Assembly: GCA_905221615.1 (NCBI GenBank)
Contig: CAJNDT010000324.1
Location: 1,223,749-1,287,748, forward strand
DNA length: 64,000 nt
Direction of reading: 5' to 3'
Source: Symbiodinium sp. CCMP2592
Taxonomy: Eukaryota > Sar > Dinophyceae > Suessiales > Symbiodiniaceae
The translations under genes were made by a program, and so were the position numbers. Below are positions 29,595 through 31,308 of this stretch, piece by piece (the stretch's first letter is position 1; the number at the start of each line of letters is the position of its first letter). Under the pieces are notes generated by a model that was not told the origin of the DNA, made no database searches, and saw nothing but the letters and a program-made list of their open reading frames with translations.

Positions 29595-31308
29595 ATGGAA
29601 CATATGAAAACACCCCGCGTTCATGAAGAAGCTGCTGACCTTTCTATCCGCCAGAATATTGAAGCGATGATTGCCAATATCCGCTGCAATGGGGAGGCCG
29701 CCGTCAAAGAGTATGCTAAGAAGTTTGATCGCTGGACCGGCGACTTCGTTCTTTCCGACGAGAAACGAAAAGCTCTCATTGCGCAGGTCTCAGAAAGCGA
29801 TAAGGCTGACATTCAGTTCGCCTATAAGCAGGTTGCTCGTTTTTCCCAGGCCCAACGGGACAGTATTCAGGAATTCAGTATTGAAACAGAACCTGGTGTG
29901 CGTCTTGGCCAGAAGCTGCAGCCAGTCAATTGTGCGGGATGCTATGTGCCGGGCGGGCGCTATGCCCATGCGGCTTCTGCTATTATGAGCATTGCGACTG
30001 CAAAGGTGGCCGGTGTTCCTTTCAACCCTAAACTCTAAACCCTAAATCCTATACCCTAGACCCTAAATCCTAAATCCTAAACCCTTTAAATCATGAACCC
30101 TAAACCCTAAAGGTAGCCGGTGTTCCTTTCATTGTTGCCGCTTCTCCTCCACGCGGAGACTCCATCGCACCGGAAGTCGCCTATGCAATGGATCTGGCCG
30201 GGGCGGACGTCATCCTAGAGACTCAGACGTAGTAATTAGTAATACGGTAGGTGATCTTTTACCTTTCTGGGGTATTGTGGTATACGTAGTAGTATACTGT
30301 AGGTGATGTTTTACCTTTCTGGGGTAGTACGGGAATATAATCCCTACATTAAACATTATCCCAAAGGTCAAACAAAACTTTTAGTTCCCCTAGGCTACTG
30401 GGCAAGCCAGGAGATGGGTGGCGTTCATGCAATTGCCTCCATGGCCTTTGGTCTGTTTGGTGCTCAAAAAGCAGACATTTTGGTGGGTCCCGGAAACGCC
30501 TATGTTGCGGAGGCTAAGCGGCAGCTCTTCGGTGAAGTTGGCATTGATGTATTCGCTGGTCCAACGGAGAGTGCAATAATTGCTGATCACACCGCAGATC
30601 CGATGACAGTCGCTGTAGACCTTGCTGGGCAGGCAGAACATGGTGTTAACTCCCCGGTGTGGTTGTTCACCACCTCCCGCCCATTGGCCGAACAAGCCAG
30701 TGATCTCGTCTTAAAAGTCGCCGGAGACATGCCAAGTGGTGATGTCGTCAGAAATGCCTGGAACAACCATGGCGAGGTAATCTTCTGCGAAACCCGGGAG
30801 AAAGTTTGTGAGGTCTCTGATCAATATGCTTGTGAGCATCTCCAAGTCCTTGCTGAAGATGTGACCTGGTGGCGCGAGAATCTGAAGAATTATGGCTCCC
30901 TCTTCTTGGGTGAGGGGGCCACCGTCACCCATGGGGATAAGTGCTCTGGCACCAACCACATCCTGCCAACGAAGAAGGCGGCCCGGTACAGCGGCGGTCT
31001 GAATGTGATGAAGTTCTTGAAGATTCTCACCTGGCAGGAGATCCTTAGGAGCTGAGTGATTACACTTTACACTTCTTGGGATAACATTGCCCACTCTAAA
31101 CCTAAAAGTTCACACTTTTGGGGGCTTATGAACTCAGCAACTAAGGATCGATCCGGAGGCGAACAAAGTCTTCAGTGCCGTGGGCTCCCGCATCAGCCGC
31201 ATGGAAGGCATGGACGGGCATGCGCGGTCTTGTGACTGGCGTTTGCGAAAATTCTTCCCAGAGGGGGAATGGGATTTCAAAGTCGCCAAGCAGGCTCGGT
31301 ATGCTTGA
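29595..31308 (+). CDS. HisD-family dehydrogenase (HpsN-type sulfopropanediol dehydrogenase or histidinol dehydrogenase), four exons
   Basis: Joining exons 29595-30005, 30113-30217, 30411-31048 and 31146-31308 gives an unbroken 438-residue protein, the usual length of this family. The expected zinc ligands of HisD are present as Q246, H249, D348 and H410, and the catalytic pair as E314/H315 (EHLQV). Signature stretches include [34 protein letters not shown] and [10 protein letters not shown]. The [15 protein letters not shown] and YGSLFLGE stretches resemble HpsN, which oxidises dihydroxypropanesulfonate to sulfolactate with NAD, more than classical histidinol dehydrogenase (last step of histidine synthesis); this assignment is by family memory. 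Donors are GT, GA and GA; acceptors are all AG|G. The GA donors support a dinoflagellate and argue against bacterial contamination. The protein looks bacterial in origin, so lateral transfer followed by intron gain is the likely history. The start is the first ATG fitting the family N-terminus; a second Met lies three codons on. Confidence 0.85.
30006..30112 (+). other. Intron 1 of the HisD-family gene, made of telomere-like DNA
   Basis: 107 bases, GT...AG, phase 0. After the first 19 bases it is entirely degenerate CCCTAAA units. It is bracketed by a 23-base direct repeat with one mismatch (30002-30024 and 30109-30131) containing AAAGGT. The left copy gives the GT donor and the right copy the AG acceptor. 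Confidence 0.8.
30218..30410 (+). other. Intron 2 of the HisD-family gene, GA donor
   Basis: 193 bases, GA...AG, phase 0, placed so that the protein reads DVIL then EMGGV as the family requires. It contains a tandem duplication with a period of 52 bases, AGGTGATSTTTTACCTTTCT, at 30249 and 30301. No telomere units. Confidence 0.65.
31049..31145 (+). other. Intron 3 of the HisD-family gene, with terminal inverted repeats
   Basis: 97 bases, GA...AG, phase 2. CTTAGGAGCTGAGT across the donor and ACTCAGCAACTAAG at the acceptor are inverted with 12 of 14 positions pairing. AGGA recurs at both boundaries. The structure fits a MITE-derived introner. Confidence 0.65.

Follow-up and report, generated by a model that had tools for sequence, protein, structure and literature searches.

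The window analysed here, a 64-kb stretch of dinoflagellate DNA, carries on its + strand an HpsN/HisD-like gene with three putative introns, the removal of which yields a 435-aa ORF without a stop. The first intron consists largely of degenerate telomere-like repeats bracketed by a direct repeat of exon sequence. The features of the gene are as follows (a slash within a motif marks the cut):

29595..30005, + strand: first exon of the HpsN/HisD-like gene, start codon ATG at 29595 (translation, gap-free alignment to bacterial homologues)
30002..30024, + strand: left copy of the 23-bp repeat, AAAG/GT providing the 5' splice site (sequence comparison)
30006..30112, + strand: putative intron 1, 107 bp, GT..AG (frame restoration; stop if retained)
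30024..30111, + strand: degenerate CCCTAAA array, 88 bp, C-rich strand sense (TRF; 11 edits in 88 bases)
30109..30131, + strand: right copy of the 23-bp repeat, AAAG/ providing the 3' splice site (sequence comparison)
30113..30217, + strand: exon 2 (spliced reading frame)
30218..30410, + strand: putative intron 2, 193 bp, GA..AG, 4-bp border repeat GAGA (spliced frame)
30411..31039, + strand: exon 3 (spliced reading frame)
31040..31145, + strand: putative intron 3, 106 bp, GA..AG, introner-like (spliced frame; genome matches)
31146..31308, + strand: exon 4, stop TGA at 31306-31308 (spliced reading frame)

Bacterial kinship of the gene and its second and third introns

A 386-residue reading of the gene that excludes exon 4 matched the Pfam family Histidinol_dh (E 1.8e-120); its best PDB match was sulfopropanediol 3-dehydrogenase (E 4.6e-136), with the histidinol dehydrogenases in PDB starting from E 9.1e-66. 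Judged by its closest solved relatives, the product would be a bacterial-type DHPS/sulfopropanediol dehydrogenase (HpsN/HisD-like), and the presence of such a gene may indicate that the dinoflagellate itself uses a sulfonate exchanged between plankton and bacteria. The complete 435-aa protein was compared with nineteen homologous bacterial loci. It is 71% identical to the Pontibacterium homologue over 434 residues with 0 gap openings, gap openings are likewise absent from the alignments with five other homologues (6 of the 19 in all), and the bacterial homologues are colinear with the spliced ORF and uninterrupted. In a midpoint-rooted tree of 20 rows, comprising the dinoflagellate protein and bacterial homologues only, the dinoflagellate protein falls inside a 12-row group (97/96) of Pseudomonadota and one Desulfovibrio row, where its partner is a Roseobacteraceae row (91/99, not starred).

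Most simply, these relationships would be explained by horizontal acquisition of the gene from bacteria, a transfer of which we infer both the direction, from bacterium to dinoflagellate, and the date. Given that the gene is of bacterial kinship and its homologues are colinear with it, the introns were probably gained after the transfer; if the transfer indeed ran from bacterium to dinoflagellate, intron gain is implied by the uninterrupted bacterial homologues. The only other histidinol-dehydrogenase match, on contig C5051, was considered as a candidate intron-less paralogue and rejected; the neighbouring protein on that contig is one that we take to be bacterial. C5051 carries bacterial-looking genes within the assembly, with uninterrupted aldehyde dehydrogenase and histidinol dehydrogenase frames.

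Introns 2 and 3 both have GA..AG borders followed by G, and GA..AG is among the non-GT intron types reported in Symbiodiniaceae (PMC11453091). A DNA search of the genome with intron 2 finds this place only. Intron 3 is flanked on both sides by GATC, and its inverted ends agree at 12 of the first 14 positions. In the whole-genome search with intron 3, all 40 candidates that were scored, out of 1592 first-look candidates and including this locus, matched, and 27 of these 40 matches run from position 4-7 to position 104-108, approximately between the GATC copies. By its sequence, intron 3 thus looks like a member of a high-copy introner-like family.

Anatomy of intron 1

The two copies of the 23-bp direct repeat (30002-30024 and 30109-30131) are identical at 22 of 23 positions, the sole mismatch being at position 7 (G in the left copy, A in the right), which is synonymous in the exon (GTG/GTA, Val in both cases). 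Between them, the array at 30024-30111, also reported as tandem-repeat rows by TRF, departs from perfect CCCTAAA repeats by 11 edits in 88 bases (12.5%). The preliminary description of the locus, which depicted a filling of degenerate CCCTAAA units bracketed by a 23-base exon repeat with one mismatch, was accurate on both counts. The duplication spans at most 23 bp, of which 19 bp are strictly unambiguous, since the terminal AAA on one side and the terminal A on the other could equally belong to the telomere repeat. The best other ungapped match to the 23-mer on the + strand of the 64-kb window reaches only 15/23, and over the tested exon stretches (29595-30001 and 30132-30217) no match exceeds 12/23; a 24-mer of exon sequence at the left copy is unique in the genome. 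The ends of intron 1 bear a direct exon repeat beyond chance, which supports an origin by break repair.

The motif AAAG/GT is present in both repeat copies, and GT..AG cuts between 30005 and 30006 and between 30112 and 30113 restore the frame exactly. The proposal that the repeat itself bears both the GT donor and the AG acceptor, such that removal of the insert restores the protein, accordingly holds for the reading frame, splicing at these sites being predicted. If the insert is retained, a stop codon is met four codons into the array. The A that distinguishes the right copy gives rise to another AG four bases further downstream (GTAG), the use of which would break the frame; therefore, the first AG is required for the full product. 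The acceptor of intron 1, CCCTAAAG/G, resembles that of intron 3, AACTAAG/G. At the right junction, AAA is in register with the telomere repeat, and two perfect units are found there. The intron contains eight branch-like CTRA motifs, and its RNA is predicted to be unstructured (minimum -2.4 kcal/mol, z 1.25).

Terminal inverted repeats are not found in intron 1, where the C-rich repeats at the two ends of the insert share one orientation, and no LINE sequence lies between the duplications, the insert consisting of telomere-like repeats only. A search of the genome with the 54-bp core of the insert finds a single place at up to 3 mismatches, and in this respect intron 1 is unlike the copies of a repeated family. 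The array is located inside the gene, ~44 kb from the nearer contig end. An age argument based on the divergence of the array (12.5% edits) versus that of the duplication (1 of 23 bases) was discarded: the two values are compatible with a single age (P ~0.2-0.3), and therefore divergence does not tell a fresh telomerase product from captured degenerate DNA.

Telomere-like arrays and flanking duplications in the assembly

The repeat TTTAGGG is the dinoflagellate telomere repeat (PMC11453091). In the assembly (1,098,105,373 bases in 5383 contigs), five tandem CCCTAAA units give 40,824 matches, overlapping ones counted, and the control gives 0. A 21-base motif that we take to be the dinoflagellate spliced leader occurs 429 times, with 0 occurrences of the reversed control; combined with the GA-AG introns and the TTTAGGG repeats, it marks the genome as that of a dinoflagellate. 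The arrays come in blocks: contig C2 is free of five-unit matches before 1.79 Mb, with spliced-leader copies present both before and within its array-rich part. In 200 kb of the contig that contains the window (C324), 332 arrays make up 10.5% of the bases, and the window itself holds 89 arrays (6.7% of bases). Sampling 5 kb from each of ten contigs gave two samples rich in arrays (7 and 14), three with a single array and five with none; no array was found in 20 kinesin-gene stretches, hand-picked from 89 matches for adjacent exons, stops or extra length. Telomere-like arrays are, then, a common repeat of this genome that is confined to contig blocks, where they reach up to about 10%.

One such array, in TTTAGGG orientation, contains a LINE (window positions 48372-52855) that encodes an endonuclease and a reverse transcriptase and ends in an A6 tail, its target duplication being the 13-bp GGGGTAAGGGTTT. 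The last 416 bases of this LINE are matched at 100% (rounded) in two other places, and 30 of the 40 scored matches to the same segment cover only its last 57-108 bases, as would 5'-truncated copies or related elements with a common tail. Insect TRAS/SART elements prefer telomere-like targets, and by analogy this LINE may do so as well. Elsewhere in the window, CA-type and GTT microsatellites lie side by side on a kilobase scale (55064-57107). Scans of the window with Rfam (gathering threshold) and for tRNA genes were empty.

The frequency of duplications abutting the arrays was estimated on a sample of 401 arrays of at least 20 bp, nearly all from one contig. An abutting duplication with a score of at least 12 is present at 12 of these arrays; at 7 of the 12 best duplicated arrays a third copy lies within 3 kb, which marks them as local tandem repeats. 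The intron 1 locus scores 20. Ten re-pairings of the left and right flanks of the 401 arrays yielded on average 0.0 abutting duplications scoring at least 18, and random placement of segments of equal length gave 4.8 per 401, which fell to 0.37 once low-complexity sequence was filtered out. Abutting repeats thus also occur at random genome segments, largely in tandem repeats. With the filter applied, 3 arrays were observed against 0.37 expected at scores of at least 18 (including one local tandem repeat), 5 against 0.97 at scores of at least 12, and 6 against 1.73 at scores of at least 10, the last threshold giving 12 against 7.8 when unfiltered; the excess over random placement that remains after the complexity filter is modest. 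An early reading of enrichment (22 of 421 versus 1.4 in re-paired flanks) was abandoned, the count being made up in part of microsatellites and tandem repeats.

A long duplication (23-29 bp, at most 1 mismatch) with no third direct copy nearby is found at 4 of the 401 arrays:

the gene described here (23 bp)
position 87233 of the 200-kb stretch (29 bp)
L025:3797 (24 bp)
position 174509 (23 bp, one inverted copy nearby)

A fifth non-tandem duplicated array has a duplication of 16 bp. The array at position 87233 (C324:1087233-1087347) is nearly perfect, with 1 mismatch in its 29-bp abutting duplication, and the reading frame at its empty site is only 68 aa long. Among the empty sites of 18 duplicated arrays, only that of the gene described here has a long reading frame (222 aa; the next are 117 and 105 aa).

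The sharpest test of generality used near-perfect arrays on C1 and C2, each with five perfect units and together the first 20 on a list of 32; 0 of the 20 have an abutting duplication of at least 10 bp, the best being 9 bp (L075) and 7 bp (L093), so that long duplications of the target do not accompany the arrival or growth of most arrays. Ascertainment presumably also plays a part, in that an insertion into an exon would survive only if it doubles a splice site. A general transposon-like telomere element was rejected on the same count, together with the lack of inverted repeats. The preliminary description also raised the prospect of a system coupling telomere-like filler to intron gain, which is not borne out by these data: arrays are common, long duplications are rare among them (4 of 401, and none of the 20 near-perfect arrays), and the 20 kinesin stretches hold no array.

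Origin of intron 1 and comparison with known systems

Intron 1 is probably telomere-type DNA that was joined during repair of a staggered break and, by doubling a proto-splice site, became spliceable; we infer from the sequence that there was a break, that telomerase may have acted on it and that the insert is spliced. Under this scenario, a gene for a bacterial-type DHPS dehydrogenase would have entered the dinoflagellate genome from a marine bacterium, free of introns. A later staggered double-strand break within the codons for KVAGVPF would have exposed a bottom-strand 3' end ...CCACCTTT, the TTT of which, being in register with TTTAGGG, could have been extended by telomerase; alternatively, the end of an existing interstitial array might have annealed there and been captured or joined. 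Filling-in of the overhangs would then have produced the direct duplication of 19-23 bp, setting AAAG/GT on the left and AAAG/G on the right, such that the spliceosome could remove 107 bases and bring back the old coding sequence. The sense transcript would bear the C-rich strand, with its branch-like motifs and little RNA structure. Intron gain via proto-splice duplication, as originally suggested for this locus, is supported by the bacterial look of the gene, the colinearity of the spliced ORF with its homologues and the single-copy core of the insert.

Several other explanations have to be weighed against break repair. The array could be an unspliced insertion that broke the gene or one of its alleles and that may be recent, considering that the repeat copies differ by one base; a pseudogene is unlikely, however, as the 435-aa frame is stop-free and aligns without gaps at 71% identity, the frame is intact on both sides of an insert that has 11 edits relative to perfect repeats, and the other two introns keep the frame. 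We likewise find it improbable that the insert was target-primed, i.e., that the exon was nicked by a LINE endonuclease and the template came from telomeric RNA or telomerase, leaving a target-site duplication of the retrotransposon type. Such a process could find its agent in the LINE of the window, which sits with its 13-bp duplication in a TTTAGGG array and the tail matches of which are mostly short, like 5'-truncated copies, and a usable primer in the TTT that ends the bottom strand at the right junction. Yet intron 1 is devoid of LINE sequence, its duplication is 19-23 bp rather than 13 bp, and none of the 20 near-perfect arrays has a duplication of at least 10 bp.

An older ordinary intron, the interior of which was invaded or replaced by telomeric repeats, would fit the great abundance of interstitial arrays in this genome and the intron richness of dinoflagellate genes (PMC11453091), but the array is directly bordered by the two copies of the exon duplication, leaving no remnant of any other intron sequence, and no comparable repeat of the 23-mer exists elsewhere on the + strand of the window, which makes this history very improbable. 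Low-complexity repeats are open to misassembly; nevertheless, an assembly or sequencing artefact is hardly credible where such arrays are numerous in the assembly, the gene is colinear on both sides of the insert and the exon 24-mer at the left copy is unique in the genome.

Taken as a single locus, the intron looks like a rare meeting of intron gain by break repair with insertion of interstitial telomere repeats. A broader and rather doubtful possibility is that capture of telomere-type DNA at staggered exon breaks is a recurrent route of intron birth in array-rich dinoflagellates. Under that broader view, the C-rich strand would supply CTAAA branch-like motifs every seven bases within unstructured RNA, so that any insertion duplicating AGGT would be spliceable at once. 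The origin of non-mobile introns is an old open question, and the source of many newly gained introns is described as not identifiable (PMC3443670). The present locus is one clear candidate for the origin of a new intron in a gene apparently of bacterial source, at which the donor repeats, the target gene and the exon-duplication scar with both splice sites can be read together; the same gene also has an introner-like intron nearby. In genomes rich in interstitial telomere repeats, intron birth by DNA repair thereby becomes amenable to screening.

Introns have been proposed to arise through the repair of staggered breaks. In Daphnia pulex (PMC4202315, PMC3443670), break-derived introns have, as here, a direct exon repeat at both ends and foreign filler, and the gain is polarised by intron-less relatives; the Daphnia repeats are 4-12 bp long (PMC4202315) and their filler mostly has no known source, apart from one mitochondrial case, whereas here the repeat is 19-23 bp and the filler telomere-type. 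Direct repeats near the splice sites of 213 introns range from 4 to 30 bp, with a mean of 11.4 (PMC11782384), and in Drosophila gained introns do not have such repeats more often than conserved ones (PMC3443670).

The likeness to telomeric insertions at repaired animal breaks, to which attention was drawn at the outset, is documented (PMC7215372): mammalian interstitial telomeric insertions resemble the present one in their internal sites, in-register junction bases and occasional target duplications. In the horse, 14 of 40 such insertions have at least three in-register junction bases, far above expectation, and pure target duplications, ascribed to staggered breaks, occur at 3 of 66 loci (PMC7215372), the minor class that the intron 1 locus resembles. 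None of the human insertions described in that source lies in an exon, whereas here coding sequence was hit and splice sites are found on both sides; no intron-making case is named in its passages. More generally, among titles, abstract openings and passages, with subscription papers mostly outside this coverage, nothing joins telomeric insertion to intron gain, in agreement with the preliminary description, which knew of no precedent.

Introners (PMC9860276, PMC7789003), also known from dinoflagellates (Roy et al. 2023, as cited in PMC11453091 and PMC11782384), share with intron 1 a target duplication that supplies a splice site and a protein that usually remains unchanged. They form repeated families, some with duplications of 3-9 bp and inverted repeats, in contrast to intron 1, which was found once, lacks inverted repeats and has a much longer duplication; its RNA is little structured, unlike the hairpin introners reported in Amoebophrya (PMC7789003). 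It is intron 3 that is similar to the introners of Symbiodinium microadriaticum, with their 4-bp duplications and inverted repeats (PMC9860276). For intron 1, the repair route and the filler are each known from other systems; what is new is their product, a putative intron.
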